From Pseudomonadota bacterium (GTDB lineage Bacteria; Pseudomonadota; Alphaproteobacteria; Rhodobacterales; Rhodobacteraceae), in contig JAIUPD010000017.1 of NCBI GenBank assembly GCA_020161615.1, forward strand, positions 1 through 61,166: 61,166 nucleotides of DNA. The letters run 5' to 3'. Positions 22,282 through 38,445 of this stretch are shown one piece after another. The notes under the pieces were generated by a model that saw only the letters and a program-made list of their open reading frames with translations, was not told the origin of the DNA and made no database searches. The translations under genes and the position numbers were made by a program. Numbering within the stretch: the first letter of the stretch is position 1; each line of letters opens with the position of its first letter.

Positions 22282-23040
22282 TCACAGATGCGGATGCACC
22301 CCGCCCGAGACGGCCAGAACCTCGCCCGTGACGAAAGCCGCCTCGTCGCGCAGGAAGAAGGCGACGGCGGCGGCGGTTTCCTCGGGCTCGGCGAGCCTGG
22401 GAATGAAACTGCCCGCAACCAGCCGCGCGACCTCGGCCGGGGGCATGTTCCGCGTGACCGAGGTGTTGGTCAGCCCGGGCGCCACGCAATTGACCGTGAC
22501 ATGGGGCGCGAATTCGGCGGCGAGCGTGCGGGTGAGCGAGGCGACGGCGGCCTTGGCGGCGGCGTAATCGGCCTGCCCCTTCTCGCCGCCGAAGACGATG
22601 GAGGCGGTGTTGACCACCCGGCCGAAGCCCTGTTCCAGCATCCCGGGAACCAGCGCCTGCATCAGGTGGAAACCGCCCATCAGGTTCAGGTCGAAGGTCT
22701 GCCGCCAGCGGGTTTCGTCCATGCTGAGGAAGGGTTGGTAGAGCACGGGCGAGCGCAGGCCCCCGACCAGGTTGACCAGCAGGTCCACCCGACCGAAGGC
22801 CGCGAGCGCCGCCGCGGCGACCGCCCGCGCCTCAGGGGCGACGGTCACATCGGCGCGCTCTGCCGCGACGGCCGGCGCATCGGGGAGGGCGCGCAGCATC
22901 GCGGCAGTCTCGTCCAGCCGACGGGCGGAAATGTCGGTCAGCATCAGCCCCGCCACCCCCTCGGCCGCGAGCCTGAGGGCCACGGCCCGGCCCATCGGCC
23001 CGCCCGCGCCCGAAATGAGGGCGATACGGCCCCGGCTCAC
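22282..23040 (-). CDS. SDR-family oxidoreductase, last gene of the bad/ali operon
   Basis: A 252-residue short-chain dehydrogenase with cofactor loop SGAGGPMG, Asp36 after the second strand (TDIS, favouring NAD), and catalytic Ser147, Tyr159, Lys163. The GTG start overlaps the aliA stop (GTGA), so translation is coupled. Since BadH is also in this operon, this second SDR probably acts on another hydroxy- or oxo-acyl-CoA of alicyclic acid breakdown, for example a ring-hydroxylated analogue; this is inference. Confidence 0.85.
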   Translation of the reverse strand: MSRGRIALISGAGGPMGRAVALRLAAEGVAGLMLTDISARRLDETAAMLRALPDAPAVAAERADVTVAPEARAVAAAALAAFGRVDLLVNLVGGLRSPVLYQPFLSMDETRWRQTFDLNLMGGFHLMQALVPGMLEQGFGRVVNTASIVFGGEKGQADYAAAKAAVASLTRTLAAEFAPHVTVNCVAPGLTNTSVTRNMPPAEVARLVAGSFIPRLAEPEETAAAVAFFLRDEAAFVTGEVLAVSGGVHPHL

Positions 23041-24680
23041 AGCCCCATCTCGTCGCGCAGGATCTGCCGCAGCGCGAATTTCTGCACCTTGCCCGAGGCG
23101 GTGGCAGGCAGCGCCTCGCGCAGTTCCAGCCGCTCGGGCCAGTATTGGGTGGCGAAATGATGCGCCTTCAGATGAGCCTGCATTTCCTCGAAACTCAGAC
23201 TCTGGCCGGGTTTCGGCACGACGAAGGCGCAGGCGCGCTCGCCCAGCCGGTCGTCGGGATAGCCGACGATGGCCACGCTCTGGACCGCAGGATGCTTGAA
23301 GAGCGCGGCCTCGACCTCGACCACCGGGATATTCTCGGCGCCGCGGATGATGATGTCCTTCGATCGGCCGCAGATGCGGATATAGCCGGTCTCATCCATC
23401 CGGGCGATGTCGCCGGTGTCGAACCAGCCCTCCGCATCGACGTTGTTCCACTGCGGCCGCTTCAGATAGCCGCCGAAATTCGAACATCCCCGAACGAAAA
23501 GCTCGCCCTCGATCCCCGGGCCGCTGACCGGCCGCCCCTCGCGGTCGCGGATCTGCAGCTCGATCCCCGGCAGCGGCACGCCATCGGTTTCCGCCGCGCG
23601 CTGGGCCGGATCCTCGGGCAGGACGGTGGTGACCGCGCCGTTCTCGGTCATGCCCCAGGCCGAAATCACCCGCGCCCCCAGCACCCGCTGCGCCCGTTCC
23701 ACCACCGGGCCCGGGATCACCGTCCCGGCGCAAAGGAAGATCCTGAGCGAGGCGGGATCGGTGCCCAGTTCCTCAACCGCGCCCGACAGGTCGATCAGGA
23801 ACGGGGTGGAGGCCATGGTCCAGGTCACGCCGTCGCCCTCGATGGTGCGGGCGGCCAGCGCTTTGTCCCAGCTGTCCATCAGCACGAACCGCGCCTTCAG
23901 CATCAGGGGCAGCAGCAGGCCGTACATGAACCCGGTCTGGTGGGCCATGGGCGAGAACATGAGGATCACGTCGTCTGACCCCATGTGCAGACGCTCGGCG
24001 AAGGGGGCGAGGTTGGCGTACATCGTGTTGGCGGTATGCATCACGCCCTTGGGTTCGCCCGTGGTGCCCGAGGTATAGATCAGCTGGCAGACGTCATCGG
24101 GGCCGAGGCGGGTGTTGCGCGTGATCGAGGCGCGCTGGCTGTCGAACGCGGGGTTGCAGAGGAGCGCGTCGAAGCTGTTCGCCCCCTCACCCCCCGCCAC
24201 GACGACGTGGGCCAGCCCGGGCAGGCCCTGTTTCAGCCCCTCGGCCATCGCCTCGTGATCGAAGCCGCGGAAGGTCTTGGGCACCAGAAAGACCTTGCTC
24301 TCGCCATGCTTCAGCATGAAGCCCAGTTCACGCTCGCGGAAGATCGGCATCACGGGGTTGAAGACCGCGCCGATCCGCGAACAGCCCAGATAGCTGGCGA
24401 CGAATTCCCAGCCGTTCGGCAATTGGCAGGTCACCACATCGCCCCGCCCGACGCCCAGCGCCCGCAGGCCCAGCGCCGCGCGGTCGGCCAGAAGGTCCAG
24501 TTCAGCCCAGCTCAGGTCGCGCCGTGCGCCGGTCGCAGCCGTGATCGCCGACAGCGCCAGCGCCTCGGGATGCGCGGCGAGGCAGGCGTCGAAATAATCG
24601 TCGGCGGTCCTGTCCAGCCAGAGGCCGGCGGCGATCATCGCGGCCCGGCGGGGCTCGATGAGAACGGCGTCGAAATGCAT
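23037..24680 (-). CDS. aliA: Cyclohexanecarboxylate-CoA ligase-like acyl-CoA synthetase
   Basis: Activates the ring acid to its CoA thioester with ATP, giving AMP and pyrophosphate. 547 residues. ANL-family motifs in order: IYTSGTTGEPKGV (near residue 200), SAWGMTENG, GWFDTGDIA, GYIRICGRSKDII and the C-terminal lysine in ASGKVQKF. I assign AliA from its place with aliB, badI and badH, and from family likeness to cyclohexanecarboxylate-CoA ligases. Benzoate-like or open-chain acids cannot be ruled out. Ribosome site GGGAGGAAG. Confidence 0.8.
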   Translation of the reverse strand: MHFDAVLIEPRRAAMIAAGLWLDRTADDYFDACLAAHPEALALSAITAATGARRDLSWAELDLLADRAALGLRALGVGRGDVVTCQLPNGWEFVASYLGCSRIGAVFNPVMPIFRERELGFMLKHGESKVFLVPKTFRGFDHEAMAEGLKQGLPGLAHVVVAGGEGANSFDALLCNPAFDSQRASITRNTRLGPDDVCQLIYTSGTTGEPKGVMHTANTMYANLAPFAERLHMGSDDVILMFSPMAHQTGFMYGLLLPLMLKARFVLMDSWDKALAARTIEGDGVTWTMASTPFLIDLSGAVEELGTDPASLRIFLCAGTVIPGPVVERAQRVLGARVISAWGMTENGAVTTVLPEDPAQRAAETDGVPLPGIELQIRDREGRPVSGPGIEGELFVRGCSNFGGYLKRPQWNNVDAEGWFDTGDIARMDETGYIRICGRSKDIIIRGAENIPVVEVEAALFKHPAVQSVAIVGYPDDRLGERACAFVVPKPGQSLSFEEMQAHLKAHHFATQYWPERLELREALPATASGKVQKFALRQILRDEMGL

Positions 24681-24757
24681 GATCTTCCTCCCGAGACGAA
24701 GGGCTTTGCCCCCTGTTGGATCCGGGCGCCCTCCCCGGCGCCCGGGCTCGACGGGCC

Positions 24758-25915
24758 TCAGCCCGCGACGGCCTGACGGCCTGCCCGTTCCCGGGCGATG
24801 ATGGTCTTCATGATGTGCGCGGTGCCGTCGCCAATCTGCAGGCCCAACACGTCCCGCAGCCGTTGCTGGAACGGCAGCGTGTCGGAATAGCCGGCGTGGC
24901 CGTGGATCAAGAGGCAGGCATGGATCGCCTCATAGGCCAGAAGCGGCGGCCACCATTTGGTCATCGCGGCCTCGGCCGTGTGCGGCAGGCCCTGATCCTT
25001 GAGCCAGAGCGCGTTGTAGGACATCAGCCGCGCGGCCTCGACCTTGGTGTCGAAATCGGCCAGTTGATGCGTTACGCCCTGATAGGCGGCCAGCGGTTTG
25101 CCGAAGGCCTGACGCTCGCGGATATAGGCCCAGGTCTCGTCAAGGCTGGCGCGGGCGGTGCCCAGGCATTGCAACCCGATCAGGCTGCGCGAGAAGTCGA
25201 AACCCTGCATGACCTGGGCAAAGCCCTTGCCCTCGGCCCCCAGCAGATGGTCGGCGGGAACCTTGACATTGTCGAACCAGATCGAGCCATGGCCGATGGA
25301 ATTCTGGCCCATGTTGGTGAATTTCGACGTGGTGATGCCGGGCAGGTCCAGCGGGATCAGGATCGCCGAGACGCCATGCGCGCGATCCTCGGGCCGGCCG
25401 GTGCGGGCGAAGGTGATGACGCCCTTGGCCAGCTGGTTGGCGGAAATCGAGGTCTTCTCGCCGTTGATGATGTAGTGATCGCCGACCCGCTCCATCTTCA
25501 GGCCCAGATTGGCGGCATCCGATCCGCCCTTGGGTTCGGTCAGCGCGATGGCCAGCATGTGCTCGCCCGCAACGAGCCCGGGCAGCCAGGCCTCGGCGAT
25601 GTGTTTCTGCGCGAAGGTCGCGAGGATATGGCCGTTGAGCGAGGCCAGAAGCGAGACATAGCCGAAGGTGAAATCGGCCTTGCCCAATTCCTCGATGATG
25701 GCGCCGGCATAGAGATAGGGCGCACCCATCCCGCCATAGGCCTCGGACAGTTCCGGCGCGATGAGGCCCAGTTCGCCCATCTCGCGCAGGAGCGCCCGGT
25801 CAAAACGCCCCTCGCGTTCGCGGGCCAGATAGCCGGGCGCGACGCGGTCTTGCGCGAATTTGCGGGCGAGGTCGCGGATCTGGTCCAGTTCCTCGGTATC
25901 GAAAATCGTCTTCAT
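24758..25915 (-). CDS. aliB: Cyclohexanecarboxyl-CoA dehydrogenase-like flavoprotein
   Basis: Introduces the ring double bond (cyclohexanecarboxyl-CoA to cyclohex-1-enecarboxyl-CoA) with FAD. 385 residues. Typical acyl-CoA dehydrogenase blocks: LGLIAPELSEAYGG, IALTEPKGGSDAA, INGEKTSISANQLA, ERQAFGKPLAAYQG. The C-terminal catalytic motif reads IGDGTAHIMK, with Asp where most family members have Glu (YEGT). Ribosome site GGGAGGATTGA. It is third in the badH-badI-aliB-aliA-SDR operon. Confidence 0.82.
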   Translation of the reverse strand: MKTIFDTEELDQIRDLARKFAQDRVAPGYLAREREGRFDRALLREMGELGLIAPELSEAYGGMGAPYLYAGAIIEELGKADFTFGYVSLLASLNGHILATFAQKHIAEAWLPGLVAGEHMLAIALTEPKGGSDAANLGLKMERVGDHYIINGEKTSISANQLAKGVITFARTGRPEDRAHGVSAILIPLDLPGITTSKFTNMGQNSIGHGSIWFDNVKVPADHLLGAEGKGFAQVMQGFDFSRSLIGLQCLGTARASLDETWAYIRERQAFGKPLAAYQGVTHQLADFDTKVEAARLMSYNALWLKDQGLPHTAEAAMTKWWPPLLAYEAIHACLLIHGHAGYSDTLPFQQRLRDVLGLQIGDGTAHIMKTIIARERAGRQAVAG

Positions 25916-25957: not shown

Positions 25958-26740
25958 TCACCGGTGGAACTTGCGGAAATCGGGCTTGCGCTTTTCCTTG
26001 AAGGCGATGCCGCCTTCCTTGCTCTCGTCGGTGTCGTAATAGAGCGAGAGCCCCAGCATCCCCAGACCGGCGATGCCGCGCTGATGCTCGGTATCCATGT
26101 TGAAGCTGCGCTTCGCCAGGGCGATGGCGGTCGGCGATTTCTCCATGATCTCGGCGCACCATCTGTCCACCTCGGCGTCGAGTTGGTCATCCGGCACGAC
26201 CGTATTGACGAGGCCCATAGCCAGCGCCTCGGCGGCCTTGTAGCGGCGGCAGAGATACCAGATCTCGCGCGCCTTCTTCTCGCCCACCACGCGGGCGAGG
26301 AAGGCGGTGCCATAGCCCGGATCGACCGAGCCGACCTTGGGCCCGACCTGACCGAATTGCGCGCTTTCGGCCGCGATGGTGAAGTCGCAGATCGTGCAGA
26401 GCACGTTGCCGCCGCCGATGGCAAAGCCGCGGACCTTGGCGATGACCGGCTTCGGCACGTCGCGGATGATCGTGTGCAGGTCTTCCATCGGCAGGCCGAT
26501 CGTGCCGCGCCCGTCGTATTGCCCTTCATGCGCCGATTGGTCGCCGCCGGTGCAAAAGGCCTTGTCGCCCGCGCCGGTCAGCACGATGACGCCGACCGAC
26601 TTGTCCCAGCCCGCCTTGTTGAAGGCATGGATCAGTTCTTCGCAGGTCCGGCCGCGGAAGGCGTTGTACTTGTCGGGGCGGTTGATGGTGATGGTGGCCG
26701 CGCCATCCTTCACCGAATAGAGGATGTCCTGATAATCCAT
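25958..26740 (-). CDS. badI: 2-Ketocyclohexanecarboxyl-CoA hydrolase
   Basis: Opens the six-membered ring by hydrolysis to pimeloyl-CoA. 260 residues, the length I recall for Rhodopseudomonas BadI. It is a crotonase-fold protein of the MenB/BadI branch: TINRPDKYNAFRG, FCTGGDQSAHEG, GGGNVLCTICDFTIAAE, GQVGPKVGSVDPGYG and the C-terminal KEKRKPDF. These MenB-like loops separate it from simple enoyl-CoA hydratases such as badK. It follows badH by four bases. Confidence 0.88.
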   Translation of the reverse strand: MDYQDILYSVKDGAATITINRPDKYNAFRGRTCEELIHAFNKAGWDKSVGVIVLTGAGDKAFCTGGDQSAHEGQYDGRGTIGLPMEDLHTIIRDVPKPVIAKVRGFAIGGGNVLCTICDFTIAAESAQFGQVGPKVGSVDPGYGTAFLARVVGEKKAREIWYLCRRYKAAEALAMGLVNTVVPDDQLDAEVDRWCAEIMEKSPTAIALAKRSFNMDTEHQRGIAGLGMLGLSLYYDTDESKEGGIAFKEKRKPDFRKFHR

Positions 26741-26744
26741 GATC

Positions 26745-27512
26745 TTACCCGTGCATGGTCAGGCCGCCGGAGACGGAAATCACCTGGCCCGTGATGAAGG
26801 AAGCCTCGTCCGAGGCGAGGAAGGCGATGGCGCCGGGCAGATCCTCGGGCTTGCCCAGACGGCCCAGCGGCACGGCGCGGGTAAAGGCCTCGCGCAGCTT
26901 TTCCTTGTTGCCGGCGCTGTCCATGAAATTCTCCAGCATGCCGGTCTCGGTCACGCCGGGGCAGACGCAGTTGAAGGTGATGCCGTGGCGTGAATGCTCG
27001 CGTGCCAGCGTCTTGGAAAAGGCGATCACCCCGGCCTTGCACGCGGCATAGACGCTTTCCCCGGACGACCCGCCGCGCCCTGCGTCCGAGGCAATGGAGA
27101 CGACGCGCCCGCCCTTGCGCTCCACCATCTTCGACAGCACCGGATGGGTGATGTTGAGGACCGCGCGCAGATTGATGTCGATGATCTTCGACCAGAAGTC
27201 GGGGGTGGATTTCAGGAAGGGCACGAACAGGTCCCAGCCCGCGTTGTTCACCAGGATCTCGATGGGGCCGAACTCGGCCTCGATCCGCTCGACCGCCGAC
27301 TGACAGGCCGCGAGGTCGGTCAGATCGAAGGCCAGCGCCAGCGCCTCGCCCCCCTGCCCACGGATTTCGGCCGCCACCGCCTCGGCCGCGCTTTGGTTGA
27401 TGTCGGCGACGACGAGTTTCGCGCCTTCTTCGGCGAAGCGCAGGCAGGTGGCCGAACCGATCCCCCCGCCGCCGCCGGTTACGACAACAACTTTCCCTTT
27501 CAGACCCTTCAC
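26745..27512 (-). CDS. badH: 2-Hydroxycyclohexanecarboxyl-CoA dehydrogenase
   Basis: NAD-dependent oxidation of 2-hydroxy- to 2-ketocyclohexanecarboxyl-CoA. I choose the GTG at 27512: AGGAGAG lies seven bases upstream and the product is then 255 residues, the length I recall for BadH; a further upstream ATG at 27539 lacks such a site. Motifs: TGGGGGIG (12-19), Asp37 (VVADIN, NAD type), NNAG, Ser142, Tyr155 (SVYAACKA), Lys159. First gene of the operon that runs to 22282, divergent from badR. Confidence 0.87.
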   Translation of the reverse strand: MKGLKGKVVVVTGGGGGIGSATCLRFAEEGAKLVVADINQSAAEAVAAEIRGQGGEALALAFDLTDLAACQSAVERIEAEFGPIEILVNNAGWDLFVPFLKSTPDFWSKIIDINLRAVLNITHPVLSKMVERKGGRVVSIASDAGRGGSSGESVYAACKAGVIAFSKTLAREHSRHGITFNCVCPGVTETGMLENFMDSAGNKEKLREAFTRAVPLGRLGKPEDLPGAIAFLASDEASFITGQVISVSGGLTMHG

Positions 27513-27653
27513 GGCGATCTCTCCTGTTCCCGAAGTCATTGGCCCGGACCCGGATCCGCGCCTGCCCGCCCCTTGCGTGGCACGCAAAGCCGGTGAAACC
27601 GGTGCGAATCCCTTCCTGCCTTCGGGATCCATGGTTAGGGGAGGCTAGATTTT

Positions 27654-27671
27654 ATGTCAACTACTTTACAT
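27654..27671. promoter_or_regulatory. Probable BadR operator, badH/badR promoter
   Basis: The sequence ATGTCAACTACTTTACAT is an 18-bp imperfect palindrome of form ATGTnAAn-TA-nTTnACAT. It lies 142 bases from the badH start and 69 from badR. A near-identical site occurs at 37084-37101. MarR proteins bind palindromes of this size. Confidence 0.6.
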
Positions 27672-27739
27672 ATCATGGCCGCCTATGAGAGGCTGCGCGA
27701 CGGCTTGACGTTGCCCCGTGGCGCAGGGATAGTGAAACA

Positions 27740-28234
27740 ATGAAGCAAGACATTGACCAATCCGGCTCGCTGACCGCGGATCTTCAGAACCGTCTTGCGT
27801 TCCGGCTTTATCAATGCGCCAACCAGCTCAACAAGACCGGCACGCGCTGGCTGGACCGCCATGACGTGACCACCCAGCAATGGGCAGTGCTGGGCGCGCT
27901 GGTGCGCGAACGCTGGGTCAATGGCATTGCCGTGCGGGATCTGGCGAAGCTGCTGATGGTCAGCCGCCAGAACCTGACGGGCGTGCTGTCACGGCTGGAA
28001 TCGCGCGGCTGGATCGAGCGGGTGGTCGATGCGAACGACAACCGGTCGCGGCTGATCAAGCTGACGGCGGTCGGCTGGCAGCGCTGGGCCGACATGCAGG
28101 CCGATATCGCCTCGTTCTACAAGGAATCCATGGGGAACCTGTCGAACAACGACATGATTCACATGCTGCATTACCTCGACATCCTGCGCGAAAATTTCCG
28201 CGCCATCGACGAGGCGCAGGGCGGCGAGGAATAG
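27740..28234 (+). CDS. badR: MarR-family regulator of alicyclic acid genes
   Basis: A 164-residue MarR protein with long flanking helices and a winged HTH: VRDLAKLLMVSRQNLTGVLSRLESRGWIERVVDANDNRSRLIKLTAVG. It is divergent from badH, the same arrangement logic as BadR of Rhodopseudomonas palustris, which represses cyclohexanecarboxylate genes and is relieved by 2-ketocyclohexanecarboxyl-CoA. The palindrome at 27654-27671 is the likely site. Both function and ligand are transferred from the family and context. Confidence 0.8.
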   Translation: MKQDIDQSGSLTADLQNRLAFRLYQCANQLNKTGTRWLDRHDVTTQQWAVLGALVRERWVNGIAVRDLAKLLMVSRQNLTGVLSRLESRGWIERVVDANDNRSRLIKLTAVGWQRWADMQADIASFYKESMGNLSNNDMIHMLHYLDILRENFRAIDEAQGGEE

Positions 28235-28254: not shown

Positions 28255-29007
28255 TCAGCCCGCGTAGCCCGGGCGCGGCACCAGACCCATCAGCGCCTGC
28301 GACAGGCCGCCGTCCACGACGATCTCCTGCCCGGTGACATAGGCGGCGCGGGGCGAGGCGAGGAAGAGCACCGCCTCGGCCATGTCCCGGGCTGTACCGA
28401 TCCGGCGCAGGGGCACCACGGCCTCGCGCCGCAATTTCACCGCCGGATCGTCGTAGAAGCGCTGCGACAGCGGGGTCAGCACCAGCCCGGGGCTGACCAC
28501 GTTCGAGCGGATCCCCTCGGGCCCCAGCTCAACGGCCAACTGCCGCGACAGCATCGCCATCGCCGCCTTGCCGGGGCTGTAGGCGCCGGAAAAGGGCTGC
28601 GGGTTGCTGGCCGAGATCGAGGCGACCTGCACCAATGCCCCGCCGCCCCGCGCCCGCATCTGCGGCACCAGCGCCTGCATCATGCGCAGGGCGCCGGTCA
28701 GGTTGATGTCCAACATGGCCTGCCAATCGGCGATGGGCACGCTCTCCAATGCGCCGGGTTTCAGGATTCCGGCGTTGTTGACCAGGATGTCGGCCCCGCC
28801 ATGGCGCTGGGCGATACGTTCCGCCGCCGCCGCGACCGCCTGCGGATCGCCCAGATCGCAGGCGATCCCCTCGGGGTCGCTGGCGCTGCGGTCAACGGGG
28901 ATAGCGATGGCCCCCGCCGCGCGGAAGGCCTGAACGCAGGCCTGCCCGATCCCGCCCGAGCCGCCGGTCACCACCGCGACCTTGCCGTGAAGTCCCAGCC
29001 ATTCCAT
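28255..29007 (-). CDS. SDR-family oxidoreductase paired with the FAD dehydrogenase
   Basis: A 250-residue short-chain dehydrogenase: TGGSGGIG (14-21), Asp39 after the second strand, NNAG (77-80), Ser130, Tyr143, Lys147. The start at 29007 directly follows the stop of the FAD dehydrogenase gene, so the two are coupled. The pair SDR plus ketosteroid-dehydrogenase-like flavoprotein suggests ring-alcohol oxidation followed by desaturation of the resulting ketone. The real substrate is unknown. Confidence 0.85.
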   Translation of the reverse strand: MEWLGLHGKVAVVTGGSGGIGQACVQAFRAAGAIAIPVDRSASDPEGIACDLGDPQAVAAAAERIAQRHGGADILVNNAGILKPGALESVPIADWQAMLDINLTGALRMMQALVPQMRARGGGALVQVASISASNPQPFSGAYSPGKAAMAMLSRQLAVELGPEGIRSNVVSPGLVLTPLSQRFYDDPAVKLRREAVVPLRRIGTARDMAEAVLFLASPRAAYVTGQEIVVDGGLSQALMGLVPRPGYAG

Positions 29008-29008
29008 C

Positions 29009-30682
29009 TCAGGCCACCCCGGCGAGATGGCGGGCGGTGACATAGCCGAAGGTCATGGCCGGTCCCAGCGTGATCCCGGCCCCGGGGTAATTCCCCCCCA
29101 TGACCGAAGCACGGTCGTTGCCCACGGCATAAAGCCCCGGGATCGGCTGCCCCGACAGGTCCAGCACCTGCCCCTGCGGCGTGCATTCCAGCCCGTCGAA
29201 AGTGCCCAGATCGCCCATCACCATCTTCACGGCATAGAACGGCCCCTGCCGGATCGGCGCCACGCAGGGGTTGGGCCGGTGCTCGGGATCGGCGAGGTAG
29301 CGGTTGAAGGCGGTGGAACCGCGGTGAAATTCCGGGTCCTCGCCACGCTCGGCGGCAGCGTTGAAGCGGGTCACGGTCGCCTCGAAGGCGGAAGCGTCGA
29401 TTCCGCAGGCGCGGGCCAGATCGCCCAGCGTGCGGCCGGTCCTCAGATAGCCGTTCCTGAGGAACCGGCCGATCGGCATCGGCGCGGGTTTCACGAAACC
29501 CAGCCCGTATTTGCGCAAGGCCTCGCGGTCGGCGATCAGCCAGCAAGCGGTTTCGGCCTGACCGGCGCAGGCGGCGATCATCGCCTCGCCGACGTCGTGA
29601 TAGCTGTTGCTTTCATTGGTGAATCGCTTGCCATTGGCCAGGACCGCGATGATCCCGGGCTTGTAGCGGTCGATCAGATGCGGGAAGGGCGCGACCTTCC
29701 CGCCGCCCACGGGCACCTGCGACACCGGGATCCAGGCCGAGGTGGCGGGAAGCCGCGTCTCGAATCTGGCGCCCGCGCCCTGCCCCAGGGTGATGCCGTC
29801 GCCGGTGTTGTCCTCGGGCACCGGGGACAGATGCGTGCCGCCCTGCCGCAGATGCGGATAGGCCGCGCGGATCCGCGTGAGGTCCTGCGCGAAACCGCCC
29901 GCGGCCAGGACCACGCCCTTGCGCGCCGTCACGGTGACAGGGCCTTGCGGCGTGGCGACCTCGGCCCCCGTTACGCCCGCCGGGCCCTGGATCAGGCGCA
30001 GGGCGGGGGTGCTTGTGTGGATTTCGACGCCGAGGTCGAAGCAGCTTTTCGCCAGACGCGCCGCCAGCGCATTGCCCGAGGTCACGTTGACGCCCCGCCC
30101 GTAGCGCGCCAGTTCGACGAAATGCGCGGCAAGACGCTTGGCGACATAGACGAAGGACCGGGCCGATTTCGTCGCGTTGAAGAAGTGCTTGATGTCGGCA
30201 TTCGAGGAATTGAACATCATCCCCATGAAGGTGATGGTCTTCAGGGGCGGACGCAGCCGTTTCAGGTTCGCACCCAGCGCCGAGGCGTTGAAGGGCGCGG
30301 CGAGCACCGAGCGGCCGACCTCGACACCCCCCGGCGCGTCGGGGTGGTAGTCGGGGTACAGCGTCGGAACGAAGGCCACCGCCGTCTCGCGCTCGAAGAA
30401 ATCCAGCATCTTCGGCGCCTCGTCGAGGTAAAGCTCGACCGCTTCCTCGTCGTAGAAATTGCCCGTTTCGGCCTTCATGTAGGTCCGGGCGGCCTCGCGG
30501 TCTCCGGGGTCACGCGGGTTGCCGGGGATCCACAGCACGCCGCCGGAAAAGGCCGTGGTGCCGCCGAAGACCGGCGCCTTCTCGATGATCGTGACCTTGA
30601 GGCCCAGCCTGGCCGCGGTGACGGCCGTGGCCATCCCCCCGGCGCCCGCGCCCACCACCAGGACGTCGCATTCGCGCTCCAT
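29009..30682 (-). CDS. FAD-dependent dehydrogenase of the 3-ketosteroid Δ1-dehydrogenase/fumarate reductase family
   Basis: A 557-residue flavoprotein. The start is the ATG at 30682 after GGAGGAGAGGGC. N-terminal FAD loop DVLVVGAGAGGMATAVTAA; GGTTAFSGGVLWIPGN resembles the second nucleotide block of ketosteroid dehydrogenases; the C-terminus GNYPGAGITLGPAMTFGYV matches their active-site glycine and tyrosine region. Such enzymes take hydrogens from carbons next to a ring ketone. In this locus a steroid is unlikely, and a 4-oxocyclohexanecarboxylate-type desaturase is an attractive guess. It is transcribed away from an AraC gene, with a perfect 8-bp inverted repeat between them. Confidence 0.85.
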   Translation of the reverse strand: MERECDVLVVGAGAGGMATAVTAARLGLKVTIIEKAPVFGGTTAFSGGVLWIPGNPRDPGDREAARTYMKAETGNFYDEEAVELYLDEAPKMLDFFERETAVAFVPTLYPDYHPDAPGGVEVGRSVLAAPFNASALGANLKRLRPPLKTITFMGMMFNSSNADIKHFFNATKSARSFVYVAKRLAAHFVELARYGRGVNVTSGNALAARLAKSCFDLGVEIHTSTPALRLIQGPAGVTGAEVATPQGPVTVTARKGVVLAAGGFAQDLTRIRAAYPHLRQGGTHLSPVPEDNTGDGITLGQGAGARFETRLPATSAWIPVSQVPVGGGKVAPFPHLIDRYKPGIIAVLANGKRFTNESNSYHDVGEAMIAACAGQAETACWLIADREALRKYGLGFVKPAPMPIGRFLRNGYLRTGRTLGDLARACGIDASAFEATVTRFNAAAERGEDPEFHRGSTAFNRYLADPEHRPNPCVAPIRQGPFYAVKMVMGDLGTFDGLECTPQGQVLDLSGQPIPGLYAVGNDRASVMGGNYPGAGITLGPAMTFGYVTARHLAGVA

Positions 30683-30749: not shown

Positions 30750-30801
30750 AATCGGCATTTATTGCACGATGCACCAAGGCCCCGAGGGAGGAGGCAAAGC
30801 G

Positions 30802-31777: not shown

Positions 31778-32335
31778 ATGATCTTTGAATGGCGCAGCTA
31801 TGACCTGCGCGTTGGCAAGGCACCGGAATATCTGGCGCTGTTCAGCCGTGAGGGGGTGCAGCACGCGACCCGGCACCTGCCGATGGGGGGCTATTGGCTG
31901 GCCGAAAGCGGCGCCCTGAACCGCATCCATCATCTGTGGATTTACGACTCACTGGCCGAACGCGACGCCTGCCGGGCAGGTCTGGCGCAGGAAACCGGCT
32001 GGGTGCAGGGATTCGTTCCGCGCGGCTTTCCCCTGATCGAGCGGCAGGAAAATCGGCTGATGCGGTTGGAACGCGGCTCTGACGTGCTGGCGGCGGTGGT
32101 GGCCACCCGGCGGCAGGCGCATCCGGCGCTGGCGGAGGGTGCGCCGCTCTTCGCGCCCGGGTTCATGAGCCTGACCCTTGGCGCCGCCCCGGGTGACGCG
32201 CTGGCCGTCTGGCGGGTGGCGCAGGGCGAGAACCCCGGCGAGATTCTGGCGCTGAGCCCCGGCACCCCGCCCGCCCCGGAAGGTGCCCGCGCGCATCAGC
32301 TAATGCGCGCGCTCAGCATCTCGCCCCTCAGCTAG
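31778..32335 (+). CDS. NIPSNAP-family protein
   Basis: A 185-residue protein beginning MIFEWRSYDLRVGKAPEYL after GGGAGGA. NIPSNAP proteins are small ferredoxin-like folds, often next to catabolic oxidoreductases in bacteria and of unclear function. The first half (to about residue 100) is the NIPSNAP domain with GYWLAESGALNRIHHLWIYDSL; the second half looks like a degenerate repeat of it. It ends eight bases inside the SDR gene of the other strand. Confidence 0.75.
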   Translation: MIFEWRSYDLRVGKAPEYLALFSREGVQHATRHLPMGGYWLAESGALNRIHHLWIYDSLAERDACRAGLAQETGWVQGFVPRGFPLIERQENRLMRLERGSDVLAAVVATRRQAHPALAEGAPLFAPGFMSLTLGAAPGDALAVWRVAQGENPGEILALSPGTPPAPEGARAHQLMRALSISPLS

Positions 32336-33077
32336 CCTCGCCCGCCGCGCCGAAGGCCATCCAGCCCGCATCGACCGACAGCGTCGCGCCGGTGATGGCC
32401 GAGGCGGCGGGCGAGAGCAGGAAGGCCACCGCCGCGGCGATTTCCGCCGGCTCGATCAGGCGGCCCATCGGGCAGCGCTTCTCGATGCTGCGGGCATCGA
32501 GCAAACCGTCGGCGATCAGTTTCGCCACCAGCTCGGTGCGGACATAGCCCGGCGCCACGGCATTGACCCGGATCCCCTGCCCCGCCCATTCGCAGGCCAG
32601 CGAGCGTGTCAGCGCCACGATCCCCGCCTTGGCCGCGCCGTAACCGTTGCGCCGGGCAAGGCCGGTCAGCGCGGCGATCGAGGCCATGTTGACGATGGCC
32701 CCGCCGCCGGTCATGGCCCGCGCCGCCTCGCGCGCGACAAGGAAGGCGCCGGTCAGGTTGACCTCGACCAGCTTGCGGAAATGCGCGCCGCTCTGGTCCA
32801 GCGTCGGCACATTGGCGTCGCCGATGCCTGCGTTGTTGACCAGCGCCGTGACCGGGCCCAGCGCGGCAACCCGGGACAGAGTGTCGATGACGCCCGCCTC
32901 ATCCGTCACGTCGCAGGCAAGGCCCAGATGGCCGGGGCCGAGCGCCGCGGCCCGCGCTTCGGCCTTGGCCCCGTCGAGGTCGAGGAGCGCCAGCCGATAC
33001 CCCGCAGCGGCAAGGGTCTGGGCGCAGGCGTAGCCGATCCCCTCGGCCCCGCCGGTGATGATGGCCGTGCCTGTCAT
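32328..33077 (-). CDS. SDR-family oxidoreductase, last gene of the badK/TRAP operon
   Basis: A 249-residue short-chain dehydrogenase with TGGAEGIG, Asp33 (LLDLDG, NAD type), NNAG, Ser133, Tyr146, Lys150. It follows the TRAP large permease by a single base and so is part of the operon badK, dctP, dctQ, dctM, SDR. It probably oxidises a hydroxylated ring acid brought in by the transporter. Four SDRs lie in the alicyclic region, and their division of labour cannot be read from sequence. Confidence 0.85.
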   Translation of the reverse strand: MTGTAIITGGAEGIGYACAQTLAAAGYRLALLDLDGAKAEARAAALGPGHLGLACDVTDEAGVIDTLSRVAALGPVTALVNNAGIGDANVPTLDQSGAHFRKLVEVNLTGAFLVAREAARAMTGGGAIVNMASIAALTGLARRNGYGAAKAGIVALTRSLACEWAGQGIRVNAVAPGYVRTELVAKLIADGLLDARSIEKRCPMGRLIEPAEIAAAVAFLLSPAASAITGATLSVDAGWMAFGAAGEAS

Positions 33078-33078
33078 C

Positions 33079-34377
33079 TCAGTTCATCAGCCTTGGCAGC
33101 AGCAGGATCAGGTCCGGGAAGGCCACGATCACGCCGATGATGACGATTTCACCGACCAGGAAGGGGGTGACGCCCTTGAAGACGCTCTCCAGCGGGATGT
33201 CGGGGCGAATGCCGTTGACCACATAGCAATTGAGGCCCACGGGCGGGGTGACGACGCCGACCTCGATCAGCTTGACCAGCAGAATGCCGAACCACACGGG
33301 GTCATAGCCCAGCGCCACGATGGAGGGGAAGACGACCGGCAGGGTCAGCAGCATCATCCCCAGCCCGTCCAGGATCATCCCCAGAAGCAGGTACATGACG
33401 ATGATCGCCGCCAGGATCACCCAGCGCGGCACATCGAGATGCGTAACGCTGTCGGCGACCGAGGCGGGCAGCCCGGTGAAGGCCAGAAAGCGCACGAAGA
33501 CCATGACGCCCCAGATGACCATGAAGATCATCGCCGTGGTCTGCACCGTGTCCAGAAGGCCGTGGCCGAATTCCTTCAGCTTCATGCGCTTGCGCATGGC
33601 CATCAGCAGGATGATCGCCGTGGCGACGCCCGCCGATTCCGTGGGGGTCATCCAGCCCATGTAGATCCCGACGAGGATGACGCCGACCACCGAGAAGACG
33701 CCCGCCACCTGCGGCAGGGCGCGGATCTTCTCGATCATCGGGACGGCGGGCTCGACGGGGGCGAGGCCGGGGCGCAGCTTCACCACCACGGTGATGACGA
33801 TCAGATAGACGACGACCGACAGGATGCCCGGCAGGAAGCCCGCCAGCAGCAATTGCGCAACCGAGGTTTCGACGATGATGCCGTAGATGACCAGCAGCGC
33901 CGAGGGCGGGATCAGTGCGGCGAGCGTGCCGCCCACCGCCACGACCCCGGCGGCGAAGGCGCGGTCGTAGCCGCGTTTCTCCATCTCGGGCAGGGCGAGG
34001 CGGGTGAAGACGGCGGTCGAGGCGGTCGAGGCGCCGGAGACGGCGGCAAAGCCCGCGCTGGCGAAGATCGTCGCGGTTGCAAGGCCGCCCGGCGCCCGGC
34101 CGACCCATTTGCGCGCCGCGTCATAGGCCGAGGTGGTGATGCCCGCATGCATGGCCAGGAAACCGATGGCGACGAAGAGGGGCAGCACGCTCAGCGAATA
34201 GCTGGCCGAATTGGCGAAGGGGATCATGCCCGCCAGCCCCTCGCCCACCGAGGGGTTGCGGATATAGCTGATGCCGATGATGCCCACGAAGGCCGAGGCG
34301 AAGGCCACCGGCACGCCCAGGATGACCAGAAGCACGAGGGCGGCGATGCCCAGATAGCCGATAGTGACAGGATCCAC
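33079..34377 (-). CDS. TRAP transporter large permease (DctM type), alicyclic operon
   Basis: A 432-residue permease with VGRAPGGLATATI, SGASTASTAVF, GTLAALIPPSALLVIYG and the late VVTPPVGLNCYVVNGI. The loops differ from the other three DctM proteins (TLAALIPPS rather than IIGPIIPPS), so it belongs to a separate clade. It is within a transcript headed by badK. Confidence 0.92.
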   Translation of the reverse strand: MDPVTIGYLGIAALVLLVILGVPVAFASAFVGIIGISYIRNPSVGEGLAGMIPFANSASYSLSVLPLFVAIGFLAMHAGITTSAYDAARKWVGRAPGGLATATIFASAGFAAVSGASTASTAVFTRLALPEMEKRGYDRAFAAGVVAVGGTLAALIPPSALLVIYGIIVETSVAQLLLAGFLPGILSVVVYLIVITVVVKLRPGLAPVEPAVPMIEKIRALPQVAGVFSVVGVILVGIYMGWMTPTESAGVATAIILLMAMRKRMKLKEFGHGLLDTVQTTAMIFMVIWGVMVFVRFLAFTGLPASVADSVTHLDVPRWVILAAIIVMYLLLGMILDGLGMMLLTLPVVFPSIVALGYDPVWFGILLVKLIEVGVVTPPVGLNCYVVNGIRPDIPLESVFKGVTPFLVGEIVIIGVIVAFPDLILLLPRLMN

Positions 34378-34381
34378 GGGC

Positions 34382-34948
34382 TTATCCCTTGTCCGCGTTC
34401 AGGGCAGCCGTCGCCGGCCGTTCGATACCGAAGACCAGCGACGCGGCGCGGGGCCGGGCCAGCAGTCGCAGGGATTCGATCAGTTGCAGCAGCAGCCGCG
34501 CCAGCAGCAGCGACAGCGAGACGGTGACGAAGCCGATGCCGATCCAGGTCGGGATATGGATCTCGGCCGTATCGGCACCGCTGCGCCAGGCGCGTTCCAG
34601 AAACCCGGTCGAGCCCTGCATCAGCACCCAGACCGCCCAGGCGGCGACGGCATAGGTCAGCACCTCGGCCAGCCAGCGCGCCCGGTTCTCCAGCCGCCCG
34701 GTCAGGATGGTCATCCGCACATTGCCGAATTTGGCCTGGGTATAGGGGATGCCCCCGGCGGCGGCGATGGCCATCATCTGCGAGACGATGTCGATGCTGC
34801 CCCGGATCGGGTGGTTGAAGGCCGAGCGCCCGACCACCTCGGCGCAGACGACGACCATCAGGCCCATGATCACCAGCCCGGCCGCCAGGCCGAAGCTGCG
34901 TTCGATGAATCCCAGGAACTTGTGGATTGCCTCGATCAGCGCTTGCAT
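34382..34948 (-). CDS. TRAP transporter small permease (DctQ type), alicyclic operon
   Basis: A 188-residue protein with four membrane segments and the DctQ-type VVCAEVVGRSAFNHPI block. It lies four bases before the large permease gene and behind a hairpin after the binding protein gene. Confidence 0.9.
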   Translation of the reverse strand: MQALIEAIHKFLGFIERSFGLAAGLVIMGLMVVVCAEVVGRSAFNHPIRGSIDIVSQMMAIAAAGGIPYTQAKFGNVRMTILTGRLENRARWLAEVLTYAVAAWAVWVLMQGSTGFLERAWRSGADTAEIHIPTWIGIGFVTVSLSLLLARLLLQLIESLRLLARPRAASLVFGIERPATAALNADKG

Positions 34949-34968
34949 GCGTGTCTCATTCGCTGGGT

Positions 34969-34997: not shown

Positions 34998-35010
34998 TTC
35001 CGGGTTCGGG

Positions 35011-36069
35011 TTACTCGGCCGTCGCGGCCGCGGCGGAAGAGAGGATCAGGTCCAGCAGTTCCTGCCCCGGGGCTCCGCGGCTGTTCATGTCCTCGACCCA
35101 GGCCTGCCAGCTGGGCTCGACCGCCGCTTGCAGGGCGGCGCGCACATCCTCGGTCATCGGGACCCGCACCAGGCCGCGGGCCTCGAAATCGGCCTCGTTC
35201 TCGGCATCCACGGTTTCGTAGGCCTCGATCTGCTGGGCATAGGCGGCGGGGATCGCCTCGTCGATCAGGTCGCGATATTGCTGCGGCAGCGCGGCATAGG
35301 CGTCCTCATTGGCGGCCAGCACGCAGTTCACCGTGCCGAGGTTCCAGCGGTCCGTCACCCAGGTCGAGAGTTCCTGCAGCGAATAGGCGGTGAAGGCGTA
35401 GGTATAGGGATAGACGATCGCATCGAGCGCGCCCCGCTCCATCGAGCTGTAGAGATCGGGCGCGGGAATCGTGGTCGAGACCGCGCCCAGCGCCTGCATC
35501 AGCGCCGCATGCCCGCCCGAGGCGTTGACCCTGAGGCCCGACCAGGCGGCCAGATCCGCGGGCGGGGTGCCACGGCCCATGACTTCGTAGTTCGGCATCA
35601 GCACCGACATCACCGGCACCGCGCTCCAGCCTGCCCATTCCGCGGCGACGGCCGGGTGGCGCAGATACTCGGCATAGGTGCGATACTGGCTTTCCAGCGT
35701 CGGCAGCGGCAGCATGGCCAGGTTGAGGCCGGTCGAGATCGGCAGTTTGCCGGGATGGTAGAACGAGCAGACGGTCGCCATCTCGAAGGCGCCGATCTGC
35801 AGGCCGTCGATGTTCTCGGTCGGGTCGGACAGCACCGCGCCATATTGCAGCGACAGCTGGAAATTGCCGTCGGTCCTTTCCGACAGATAGGCGGCCAGCC
35901 CCTCGACCCCTTCGGTGAAGCCCCGGCGGTTGCCCCAGAGCGAGACCTGCCAGATGATCGCCGGGCCGTCGACCTCGGCGGCGCGGGCGGGTCCCGCGAC
36001 CGGCAGGCTCAGGCCGCTCAGCATCAGGGCCCCAAGGGCAATGGGGGTGCTCAATACGCGCATCGTCAT
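35011..36069 (-). CDS. TRAP substrate-binding protein, possible alicyclic acid
   Basis: A 352-residue periplasmic protein. Start ATG at 36069 with GGGAGGAAA; a signal peptide is visible (cut near PARA-AE, about residue 30). Binding blocks: IGAFEMATVCSFYHPGKLP, WSGLRVNASGGHAALMQALGA with the conserved arginine, and YSSMERGALDAIVYPYTYAF. It is long for the family. It lies between badK and the permeases, which points to cyclohexanecarboxylate or a related ring acid as ligand. Confidence 0.88.
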   Translation of the reverse strand: MTMRVLSTPIALGALMLSGLSLPVAGPARAAEVDGPAIIWQVSLWGNRRGFTEGVEGLAAYLSERTDGNFQLSLQYGAVLSDPTENIDGLQIGAFEMATVCSFYHPGKLPISTGLNLAMLPLPTLESQYRTYAEYLRHPAVAAEWAGWSAVPVMSVLMPNYEVMGRGTPPADLAAWSGLRVNASGGHAALMQALGAVSTTIPAPDLYSSMERGALDAIVYPYTYAFTAYSLQELSTWVTDRWNLGTVNCVLAANEDAYAALPQQYRDLIDEAIPAAYAQQIEAYETVDAENEADFEARGLVRVPMTEDVRAALQAAVEPSWQAWVEDMNSRGAPGQELLDLILSSAAAATAE

Positions 36070-36115
36070 GTTTTCCTCCCGTGACGTGGTTGTTTGGGCC
36101 GGGCGCGGGCTGCGC

Positions 36116-36892
36116 TCAGCGATGGGTGAAGGCGGGTTTGCGTTTCTCGGCGAAGGCATTCATGCCCTCGCGCCGGTCGTCGGTGGCGAAGGTCGCGTAG
36201 AGGAGGCGGCGCTCCAGATAGATCCCCTCGCTCAGATGCGTCTCATGCGCGTGGTTCACCGCTTCCTTGGCCAGCATCAGGATCGGGCGCGACCGCTGGG
36301 CGATGTCCCGGGCCAGGGCCACGGCGGCCTCCAGATAGGTGTCGAGCGGCAGGACCCGGCTGACGAGGCCCCGGGCCAGTGCCTCATCCGCCGCCATCAC
36401 GCGGCCGGACAGGATCATGTCCATAGCGACGGCCTTGCCGACGATCCGCGTCAGCCGCTGCGTGCCGCCCGCGCCGGGGATCACGCCGACGGCGGTTTCC
36501 GGCAGGCTGAAACGCGCGGTTTCCGAGGCGATCACGATGTCGCACATCAAGGCCAGCTCGCAGCCGCCCCCCGCCGCATGGCCGGAAACGGCGGCCACGA
36601 TGGGCTTGCGGCAGCGGGCGGGCCCCTCCCAGCTGCGGGTGATGAGCTGTTCGGCATAGACCTCGGCAAAGGTCTTGTCCTTCAGCTCCTTCAGGTCGGC
36701 TCCGGCAGCGAAGGCGCGGTCATGACCGGTCAGGACGATGGCGCCGATGGCATCATCCGCGTCGAAGGCCGCCAGCGCCGCCGACATCTCGGTCGTCAGC
36801 GCCAGATTCAGCGCATTCAGCGCCTCGGGCCGGTTCAGCCGCACGATACCGACCGGGCCCCGGGTTTCGGTCAGGATGGATGAATGGTTCAC
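36116..36892 (-). CDS. badK: Cyclohex-1-enecarboxyl-CoA hydratase-like crotonase
   Basis: Hydrates the ring double bond to 2-hydroxycyclohexanecarboxyl-CoA. 258 residues from a GTG preceded by AAGGAGAT. Both catalytic glutamates of true enoyl-CoA hydratases are present (GGGCELALMCD and SLPETAVGVIPGAGGTQRL), along with FAAGADLKEL for CoA. The BadK call rests on this being the missing step of the neighbouring bad/ali set and on the shared operator type upstream; a general fatty-acid hydratase is the alternative. The start overlaps the stop of a 56-codon reading frame (GTGA). Confidence 0.72.
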   Translation of the reverse strand: MNHSSILTETRGPVGIVRLNRPEALNALNLALTTEMSAALAAFDADDAIGAIVLTGHDRAFAAGADLKELKDKTFAEVYAEQLITRSWEGPARCRKPIVAAVSGHAAGGGCELALMCDIVIASETARFSLPETAVGVIPGAGGTQRLTRIVGKAVAMDMILSGRVMAADEALARGLVSRVLPLDTYLEAAVALARDIAQRSRPILMLAKEAVNHAHETHLSEGIYLERRLLYATFATDDRREGMNAFAEKRKPAFTHR

Positions 36893-37059: not shown

Positions 37060-37083
37060 GAGATTCTCCTCCACCTCATAACT

Positions 37084-37101
37084 ATGTAAACACATTAACA
37101 C
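37084..37101. promoter_or_regulatory. Second BadR-type operator, badK operon/acyl-CoA dehydrogenase promoter
   Basis: ATGTAAACACATTAACAC matches the form ATGTnAAnnnnTTnACAT seen at 27654-27671 at every fixed position but the last. It sits in the 398-base gap between the badK side and the acyl-CoA dehydrogenase. The rest of the gap (37102-37290) holds no further clear feature apart from AAGGGAGAG before 37291. Confidence 0.55.
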
Positions 37102-37290
37102 AGTTACGGCAAGCTCGACGCGATCCACGCCGCGTTGAGCCTGTATTCCTCACGAACATTACCGCAGATCATCGCGGAAATCTGTGCACCCAGCGTGGGT
37201 TCTCTTGCACTTTGGGCGAGAGATTCAGCTTGCGGCAAGCGCGTTAAATGACAATATATTGCCCTTAAATCCGACCAAGGGAGAGCATTC

Positions 37291-38445
37291 ATGAGCCTCG
37301 ACAAGGACATTCGCGACCAATTGGTTGCCACGATTCGGCGCTTTGTCGACGAACGGCTGATCCCCGCGGAAAGCGGCGTGGCGGAGCGTGACGCCATGCC
37401 CGAGGCCCTGGTGGGCGAGATGCGCGAACTTGGCCTTTTCGGCCTTTCCATCGCCGAAGAATACGGCGGCCTCGGCCTGACGATGGAGGAAGAAGCGCTG
37501 GTCATTCTGGAACTGGGCCGCGCCGCGCCTGCCTTCCGCTCGATGATCGCCACGAATGTTGGCATCGGCAGCCAGGGCATCGCGCTGGACGGAACGCCGG
37601 AACAGAAGGCCCGCTATCTGCCGCGGCTGGCCAGCGGCTCGCTGATCGGCTCCTTCGCGCTGACCGAGCCCGAGGTCGGTTCGGACGCGGGAGCGGTGCG
37701 CACCTCGGCCCGGAAGGACGGCGATCATTACGTGCTGAACGGCACCAAGCGCTTCATCACCAACGCGCCGATTGCCGGACTCTTCACCGTCATGGCCCGC
37801 ACCGACCCGTCACAGAAAGGGGCGCGCGGGGTTTCCGCCTTCGCGGTCGAGGCGGGAACGCCGGGGCTGTCGGTCGGCAAACCCGAGCACAAGATGGGCC
37901 AGCAGGGCGCGCATGTCGCCGATGTGGTGTTTCAGGATTGCCGCATCCAGGCCGACGCGCTGATCGGCGGGGTCGAGGGGATGGGCTTCAAGACGGCGAT
38001 GAAGGTGCTGGACAAGGGCCGCCTGCATATCGCTGCCGCCTGCACCGGGCTCGCGCTACGGATCATTGACGACATGGTGGATTACGCGATGGGGCGGCAG
38101 CAATTCGGCCGGCCGATCAGCGAGTTCCAGCTGTTGCAGGCGATGTTCGCCGACAGCCACGCCGAGGCCTATGCGGCGCGCGCGATGGTGCTGGACGCGG
38201 CCCGGCGCCGGGATGCGGGCGAGGATGTGAGCGTTGAGGCGGCCAGCGCCAAGATGTTCGCCTCGGAAATGGTCGGCCGGGTCGCGGACCGCAATGTGCA
38301 GGTCCATGGCGGCAACGGCTATATCCGCGACTACCGGGCCGAGCAGCTGTTCCGCGACGCGCGGCTGTTCCGCATCTACGAGGGCACGACGCAGATCCAA
38401 CAGGGCATCATCGCCCGCGAGATGATCCGCCGCCGGGCCGGGTAA
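37291..38445 (+). CDS. Acyl-CoA dehydrogenase
   Basis: A 384-residue FAD enzyme with all standard blocks: IAEEYGGLGLTMEEEA, FALTEPEVGSDAGAVRT, LNGTKRFITNAP, GRQQFGRPISEFQLLQ, QVHGGNGYIRDY and the catalytic Glu in IYEGTTQIQ. It is divergent from the badK operon and shares its operator region. It may oxidise pimeloyl-CoA or a ring acyl-CoA; unlike aliB it has the usual catalytic Glu. A clean terminator follows. Confidence 0.9.
   Translation: MSLDKDIRDQLVATIRRFVDERLIPAESGVAERDAMPEALVGEMRELGLFGLSIAEEYGGLGLTMEEEALVILELGRAAPAFRSMIATNVGIGSQGIALDGTPEQKARYLPRLASGSLIGSFALTEPEVGSDAGAVRTSARKDGDHYVLNGTKRFITNAPIAGLFTVMARTDPSQKGARGVSAFAVEAGTPGLSVGKPEHKMGQQGAHVADVVFQDCRIQADALIGGVEGMGFKTAMKVLDKGRLHIAAACTGLALRIIDDMVDYAMGRQQFGRPISEFQLLQAMFADSHAEAYAARAMVLDAARRRDAGEDVSVEAASAKMFASEMVGRVADRNVQVHGGNGYIRDYRAEQLFRDARLFRIYEGTTQIQQGIIAREMIRRRAG

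Follow-up and report, generated by a model that had tools for sequence, protein, structure and literature searches.

The stretch of DNA analysed here, called the window throughout, is one whole contig (C17; JAIUPD010000017.1, 61,166 nucleotides) of the 4.87 Mb genome of a member of the Rhodobacteraceae (G000). It carries an island in which genes for the degradation of cyclohexanecarboxylate (bad-ali genes) are joined to a tripartite ATP-independent periplasmic (TRAP) transporter (Table 1). The outer open reading frames (ORFs) of the island, 22282-23040 on the minus and 37291-38445 on the plus strand, agree with the ORF list, and the gene positions given in an earlier description of this DNA (the original prediction), including the end of the dctP ORF at 35011, match the ORFs. 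By gene order the island consists of three divergent pairs: a short-chain dehydrogenase/reductase (SDR) gene with aliA, aliB, badI and badH (minus) opposite marR (plus), SDR2 with a gene for a flavin adenine dinucleotide (FAD)-dependent dehydrogenase (minus) opposite AraC and NIPSNAP genes (plus), and an enoyl-CoA hydratase (ECH) gene with dctPQM and SDR3 (minus) opposite an acyl-CoA dehydrogenase (ACAD) gene (plus). The original prediction had correctly placed the TRAP genes between 'badK' (ECH) and an SDR, but its two divergently regulated operons give way to these three pairs, the FAD/SDR/AraC/NIPSNAP pair having gone unmentioned. Operons are predicted from gene spacing in the sequence. Proteins were assigned with Pfam and NCBIfam profiles, with the NCBIfam equivalog cut-offs applied; L numbers denote loci and G numbers genomes.

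Table 1. Features of the island in the window, ordered by position
Feature	Position	Strand	Evidence or remark
SDR1, SDR dehydrogenase downstream of aliA	22282..23040	-	PF13561
aliA, cyclohexanecarboxylate-CoA ligase	23037..24680	-	TIGR03208 824.8 bits, cut-off 792.3 (passed)
aliB, cyclohexanecarboxyl-CoA dehydrogenase	24758..25915	-	TIGR03207 572.9 bits, cut-off 575.35 (2.5 bits short)
badI, 2-ketocyclohexanecarboxyl-CoA hydrolase	25958..26740	-	TIGR03210 502.3 bits, cut-off 467.6 (passed)
badH, 2-hydroxycyclohexanecarboxyl-CoA dehydrogenase (ORF)	26745..27632	-	TIGR03206 381.5 bits, cut-off 431.2 (50 short)
BadR-like operator, badH/marR	27651..27674	.	33.9 bits
marR regulator	27740..28234	+	PF12802; BadR-like by position and operator
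SDR2, SDR dehydrogenase	28255..29043	-	PF13561; occurs together with the FAD gene in relatives
FAD-dependent dehydrogenase (ORF open from 30733)	29009..30682	-	PRK06134 734.4 bits, cut-off 747
AraC-family regulator	30769..31716	+	PF12833, PF02311; HpaA 147.7 bits, cut-off 274.65 (low score)
NIPSNAP-family protein (ORF from 31595; ATG at 31778 likely)	31778..32335	+	PF07978 E 2.7e-20
SDR3, SDR dehydrogenase	32328..33077	-	1 bp from dctM; NF053701 (ChcB2) 198.6 bits, cut-off 350 (low)
dctM, TRAP large permease	33079..34377	-	PF06808 E 2.4e-75
dctQ, TRAP small permease	34382..34948	-	PF04290 E 2e-17
dctP, TRAP solute-binding protein	35011..36069	-	PF03480; canonical arginine replaced by Asn182
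Codon of Asn182 (position of SiaP Arg147)	35524..35526	-	alignments to solved binding proteins
ECH, enoyl-CoA hydratase, 'badK' by context	36116..36892	-	PRK05862 364.9 bits, cut-off 396 (best model)
BadR-like operator, ECH-dctPQM side	37081..37104	.	15.7 bits; overlaps -35-like box at 37090
BadR-like operator before ACAD	37245..37268	.	27.6 bits; contains CAATATATTG, exact CAATnnATTG at 37252
ACAD, acyl-CoA dehydrogenase	37291..38445	+	PF00441 E 4.3e-47

The assignment of the bad-ali pathway is near certain, and the pathway itself is already known; clusters of this kind are described as widespread and as functioning with and without oxygen (available part of PMC9795900). AliA and BadI pass the cut-offs of their families. 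AliB and BadH stay below them, yet TIGR03207 and TIGR03206 are the best models of the two proteins, the next model for BadH scoring only 240. The BadH family match begins at residue 44, which places the true start probably near 27.5 kb. The marR gene is divergent from badH, the arrangement typical of BadR, and a marR of 51-75% is found at the equivalent place in the clusters of 12 more distant relatives. For ECH, no BadK model was among the 25 profile matches listed and the name 'badK' thus rests on conserved position, with relatives of 69-77% in L018, L020, L022, L023, L028-L031, L062, L086 and L087; the enzyme could instead be an aabB-like hydratase. The full set of aliA, aliB, badK, badH and badI claimed in the original prediction is therefore right as a pathway assignment, but badK is named by context only. 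ACAD is a frequent companion of bad-ali genes, with relatives of 77-85% in L018, L022, L023, L029-L031, L086 and L087 and none seen in the L020, L027, L028 and L062 loci; it is possibly a pimeloyl-CoA dehydrogenase similar to AabA. SDR1 relatives (59-69%) stand beside aliA in L018, L020, L021, L028, L029, L031, L062, L086 and L087, and none was seen in the loci L022, L023 and L030. A zinc-type alcohol dehydrogenase gene directly precedes ECH in L030 (7996-9039; of these loci the only one Pfam-scanned for it), with 63-65% relatives in L028 and L031 and genes of like beginning in L018, L020, L022 and L087; none was seen in the cluster of the window.

The transporter is a complete DctP-type TRAP system: DctP, DctQ and DctM all score above their Pfam cut-offs (PF03480, PF04290, PF06808). 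A GGAGG stands a little before the dctP ATG at 36069, and ECH and dctP are 46 bp apart. The nearest named dctP relatives are those of Pararhodobacter aggregans (97%) and P. zhoushanensis (87%). Three more DctP-type binding proteins are encoded on the 61 kb contig (9481-10860, 18152-19141 and 56905-57933), all with the canonical arginine discussed below.

The association of this transporter with bad-ali genes recurs. A scan of named genomes with DctP returned 24 loci (L026-L049), and in L026-L031 (dctP 58% or more) bad-ali genes lie beside dctPQM; whole-genome searches added a locus of Seohaeicola (L062) and a plasmid search one on pPABY2 of Salipiger abyssi (L086). With the window, a close dctP is found within 10 kb of badI at nine loci, among which the window, L026 and L027 are close kin. 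When 18 genomes were searched for badI, all seven with a badI over the cut-off had a dctP of at least 63% less than 10 kb away; L027 and the plasmid locus L086 are two further linked loci beyond these seven genomes. Gene order varies between lineages, the bad-ali genes of L028-L031 and L086 being directed away from the ECH-TRAP genes, so the linkage was kept through rearrangement.

Considered from the side of the transporter, nine of 13 close TRAP loci have bad-ali genes, ten have the FAD unit and 12 have either. L030 and L031 combine TRAP and bad-ali genes but lack the FAD unit, nor does either genome contain a close FAD relative (best matches 40% and 55%). TRAP and FAD unit occur without bad-ali genes in L032, L034 and L035, and L033 is disrupted in dctM. 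In two metagenome-assembled genomes of Sneathiella (L037, L038; dctP 48-51%) the TRAP genes stand in one run with catabolic genes resembling aliA (33-34%), badH (46%), ACAD (33-35%) and badI (53%), which suggests a related ring acid; the run may serve the breakdown of a substituted ring acid. At the 11 loci L039-L049 (dctP 36-40%) there was no badH or badI match, although five of them (L040, L041, L043, L044 and L046) lie on short contigs (5-11 kb). Weak ligase matches (25-26%) occur in L040 and L042; L036 is a contig of 4 kb. The locus L106 of genome G462 (dctP 46-49%) has neither bad-ali nor FAD genes within 10 kb. The simple rule that this TRAP system means bad-ali was rejected on L106 and on L032-L035.

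Broader sampling sets the scale of the association. Among 390 genomes of the order, eight have badI at E <= 1e-100 (six over the cut-off) and 206 match dctP at E <= 1e-60; a dctP of 50% or more is present in two, the genome of the window and G066. In a sample of 385 genomes of the class, badI was found at E <= 1e-110 in 44 (10 over the cut-off) and dctP at E <= 1e-95 in two, the window included.

Other bad-ali clusters contain other importers. In plasmid pPAN3 of Paracoccus pantotrophus (L087 12788-17401) and in G273 (L018 5925-10535) an ATP-binding cassette (ABC) importer of the leucine/isoleucine/valine (LIV) type lies between badI and aliB: for L087, a binding protein (PF13458), two permeases (PF02653) and one ATPase (PF00005) were identified, and for L018 the binding protein only was scanned. 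It is a second candidate importer for cyclohexanecarboxylate. In G264 (L105 1772-4722) an unrelated DctP (PF03480) followed by a dctM of 31-34% is divergent from marR, with an operator of 37.8 bits between the two, indicating a separate recruitment of a TRAP system to bad-ali genes.

BadR of Aromatoleum binds CAATnnATTG and responds to cyclohexanecarboxyl-CoA (available part of PMC9795900). At 13 loci, the intergenic region of badH and marR contains a palindrome near TTTATGTCAAnTAnTTTACATWT, with 0-3 mismatches to its 18-bp core. A matrix made from these sites was always trained without the scanned locus, and without the window, L026 and L027 if any of the three was scanned; L086 stood outside the training. 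In the window the palindrome at 27651 reads CAACTACTTT, one base off CAAN4TTG, and an exact CAAGACATTG at 27746 falls inside the marR coding sequence. All nine loci with TRAP and bad-ali genes have matrix matches at badH/marR and upstream of ECH and/or ACAD, where upstream of ECH means upstream of the preceding alcohol dehydrogenase gene in L028, L030 and L031. No match of at least 9 bits was found in L032, L034, L035 and L065, which have TRAP and FAD unit without bad-ali (L034 and L065 are the same region), and L106, also without bad-ali, has no operator match. Of 18 loci with bad-ali genes, 12 have a match of at least 13 bits next to a bad or ali gene and six do not (L092, L093, L100, L101, L102, L107). 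A second-order Markov control of 40 x 61 kb gave one match of at least 14 bits and none of at least 25. Because the 18-bp pattern was first spotted by eye and picked the training sites, the excess in the window and the badH/marR matches are partly circular; independent tests are the ECH/ACAD matches and the loci outside the training. From the operator-like sites upstream of ECH and/or ACAD we predict that the BadR regulon includes the ECH-TRAP run. There is no terminator-like element in 30600-38600. A search of the whole window for CAATnnATTG with one mismatch gave five matches (11.8 expected) and is uninformative by number; weight is given solely to the longer palindrome and to the exact match at 37252. 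A match at 27478 (15.0 bits) lies within the badH coding sequence, recurs in relatives and was not counted as operator. Outside the island, a BadR-like palindrome (44842-44865, 18.8 bits) lies about 100 bp upstream of a class I aminotransferase ORF (43524-44738).

The binding protein is unusual in its presumed ligand site. An arginine equivalent to SiaP Arg147 is present in 5943 of 6142 DctP proteins (96.8%; available part of PMC4646407). In DctP of the window, the motif G-L-x-V-R reads G-L-R-V-N: a HMMER alignment of the protein places residue 182 opposite the arginines of 7nr2 and 2hzk, and the family profile aligned to 4n6d, 4nap, 4pgn, 2hzk and 7nr2 places it opposite theirs. In a tree of 32 DctP proteins (a quick method with no bootstrap and with long branches flagged) the window belongs to a clade of 15 rows with a Shimodaira-Hasegawa-like approximate likelihood-ratio (SH-aLRT) support of 99. 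None of the 17 clade proteins, with L086 and L106 added, has the arginine: 14 have Asn, two Ser and one, L106, has His at 182. The paralogues retain it in 16 of 17 cases, the sole exception being L052 (Ser), the sister branch of the clade. At two further positions, where 16 of the 17 paralogues have His226 and Pro244, the clade has Phe and Leu, which would fit a more apolar site. Arginine loss as a unique feature was rejected: in the genome of the window 29 of 37 DctP proteins keep the arginine and eight have another residue there (N, T, M, F, W, A, F, A), where one protein without and one with arginine show an internal stop and two are partial matches. This share is far above the approximately 3% published for the family, and several of the eight may import non-carboxylate or hydrophobic ligands. 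What is special is only that the Asn/Ser/His state is conserved across the clade. The predicted structure of DctP has a mean predicted local distance difference test (pLDDT) score of 90.5; a fold search with it identified no ligand. Both the best fold match and the best single-sequence match in the PDB are 7nr2, TarP_Sse with coumarate, which is a binder of a ring carboxylate.

The FAD unit between marR and the TRAP genes is a candidate alternative client of the transporter. The FAD protein resembles 3-ketosteroid delta-1-dehydrogenase (KSTD) and 4-oxocyclohex-2-ene-carboxylate dehydrogenase; it aligns along its length with 3-oxosteroid 1-dehydrogenase 7p18 (E 3.7e-91) and keeps tyrosines which we take to be catalytic in that family. 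Membership of the Chc pathway was rejected on scores, 297.4 bits of 1000 for ChcC1 and 551.3 of 900 for ChcC2 (NF053677). Three of the sampled genomes (G246, G356, G152) have the FAD gene at 69-71% but no close version of the TRAP system, and each time the gene adjoins a LIV-type ABC importer. Of the three corresponding loci, L126 and L128 were scanned and have a gene with a shikimate dehydrogenase substrate-binding domain (AroE matches below cut-off), and in L127 a gene begins similarly; L126 and L127 retain AraC, NIPSNAP and SDR3, and L128 has neither NIPSNAP nor SDR3 at that place. This neighbourhood of ABC importer and shikimate-dehydrogenase-like gene is the main ground for reading the FAD unit as one that may oxidise hydroxylated (hydroaromatic) ring acids.

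The explanation that we favour, and consider probable, is a BadR-controlled TRAP importer for saturated or hydroxylated ring acids with altered recognition of the carboxylate, joined to bad-ali, the ligand being putative. It is likely that the transporter serves ring acids, and the link is supported beyond adjacency by the linkage at nine loci and the BadR-like operators. In this scheme, TRAP would import saturated six-ring carboxylates, most likely cyclohexanecarboxylate and its hydroxylated or oxo derivatives, with a binding protein that recognises the ligand in the absence of the usual salt bridge between arginine and carboxylate. The unsubstituted acid would enter the bad-ali route: AliA would convert it to the CoA ester, AliB desaturate the ring, the BadK-like hydratase add water, BadH oxidise the product and BadI open the ring to pimeloyl-CoA. 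Hydroxylated or oxo acids would be oxidised by the neighbouring unit of SDR and KSTD-like flavoprotein, which the AraC regulator would control. The BadR-like MarR repressor would govern the bad-ali pathway, and TRAP, encoded behind the hydratase gene, would share its regulon. More tentatively, with somewhat less than an even chance in our estimate, the clade as a whole may be a saturated ring-acid scavenger that lacks the arginine salt bridge, is borne on chromosomes and plasmids, is combined with interchangeable catabolic units (bad-ali or hydroaromatic oxidation) and controlled by BadR, and would thus be a new ligand class with a new recognition mode.

Several observations weigh against an importer of ring acids for bad-ali. 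The association is confined to one dctP clade and most bad-ali clusters lack this TRAP system: among the 390 genomes of the order, only that of the window has badI (E <= 1e-100) together with a dctP of at least 50%. At four of the 13 close TRAP loci (L032-L035) there are no bad-ali genes within 10 kb, and these genomes have no badI over the cut-off. The operator on the ECH side is weaker than the unexplained site at 44842, and in L029, L062 and L086 a gap of about 350-470 bp separates ECH and dctP with no operator match inside, making a separate promoter possible there. As an alternative, TRAP could serve the FAD/SDR/AraC/NIPSNAP unit only, which would oxidise hydroaromatic or oxo-ring acids in the direction of aromatics, while bad-ali would be a neighbour with a different substrate entering by diffusion or another pump. 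The three loci with TRAP and FAD unit but no bad-ali, the close contact of SDR3 with dctM and the occurrence of the FAD unit elsewhere beside an ABC importer and a shikimate-dehydrogenase-like gene would fit; we nevertheless regard it as unlikely, given TRAP and bad-ali without the FAD unit in L030 and L031 and the presence, at all nine loci with bad-ali, of BadR-like operators before ECH and/or ACAD.

Further objections concern the ligand itself. The likeness to TarP is weak: identity is 20%, the E-values of 50 chains fall within three orders of magnitude, and a sequence search with the family profile has 4n6d first and 7nr2 fifth. With the arginine lost, a classic carboxylate ligand becomes less likely and a plain salt bridge may not be the binding mode; TRAP proteins without this arginine are linked to non-carboxylate or hydrophobic ligands (available part of PMC4646407). 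The ligand could then be a ring compound, neutral or very hydrophobic (an alcohol, ketone, ester or terpenoid), which the SDRs convert to the ring acid inside the cell. The absence of the arginine from the entire clade and the clade-specific Phe226 and Leu244 agree with this, as does the sister protein L052, whose gene has neighbours suggestive of acyl-CoA metabolism (judged only by BLAST and by eye). We think such a ligand quite unlikely: the loci L030 and L031 showed no SDR3, AliA requires the free acid as substrate, and a carboxylate can be held by waters or other residues, as in SiaP R147A (available part of PMC4646407). It is distinctly improbable that TRAP imports aromatic acids, as TarP does, or a dicarboxylate such as pimelate or adipate. 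The fold match to TarP with coumarate points in that direction, and dicarboxylates would join the bad-ali route at pimeloyl-CoA; apart from the low identity and the many near-equal chains, however, the arginine is present in the aligned TarP sequence and absent from DctP of the window, and the ORFs from 22 to 45 kb that were scanned with Pfam include neither ring-hydroxylating nor benzoyl-CoA genes.

With the bad-ali clusters of Rhodopseudomonas palustris and Aromatoleum sp. CIB, the cluster of the window shares aliA, aliB, badH, badI, a divergent MarR-type gene and a predicted CAAN4TTG-like operator nearby, but it additionally holds the TRAP importer and the FAD unit; the words 'TRAP' and 'transport' are absent from the available main text of the Aromatoleum paper (PMC9795900). 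TarPQM, the TRAP system for aromatic acids, shares the DctP fold and the position of an importer beside ring-acid catabolism, whereas DctP of the window has Asn in place of the carboxylate-binding arginine of TarP; the available part of the TarP paper (PMC3610893) does not mention cyclohexane or alicyclic. The Chc aromatisation proteins (ChcB, ChcC1, ChcC2; names from NCBIfam models) likewise combine an SDR and a KSTD-like flavoprotein, acting on oxo-cyclohexanecarboxylates, but the proteins of the window score far below those equivalog cut-offs. The LIV-type importers of L087 and L018 are also part of a bad-ali gene run, but belong to an unrelated transporter family and, unlike TRAP in the window, are placed between badI and aliB. 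New here are the TRAP system tied to bad-ali, the second unit with the FAD gene and the clade of binding proteins without arginine.

The passage of saturated ring acids, naphthenic-type acids from oil as well as plant and microbial ones, across the membrane has no account in the literature searched, which covered few subscription journals. No paper found there pairs 'cyclohexanecarboxylate', 'cyclohexane carboxylate' or 'naphthenic acid' with 'TRAP transporter', in line with the original prediction, by which no characterised TRAP system for such acids is known, and the available parts of papers on other naphthenic-acid degraders (PMC4547698, PMC5906575) name no importer for these acids. The linkage names candidate proteins, and the operators predict co-regulation. 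The suggestion that the binding protein defines a new ligand class gains an argument from the lost arginine, but the same loss cautions against plain carboxylate binding: as DctP lacks the residue with which most of its relatives hold acids, recognition of its cargo becomes a testable question. The clade is a natural exception to the one-arginine rule for carboxylates in TRAP binding proteins, and if its members bind ring carboxylates with high affinity, the rule for predicting TRAP ligands must change.

The genome of the window also contains pobA, which alone proves nothing. Next to the island, a minus-strand run (38511-44738) encodes a class V aminotransferase, an FmdA/AmdA-like protein, a dihydrodipicolinate synthase (DHDPS)-like protein, an RraA-like protein, an SDR and a class I aminotransferase; in P. 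aggregans (L026) this run likewise lies next to the island.

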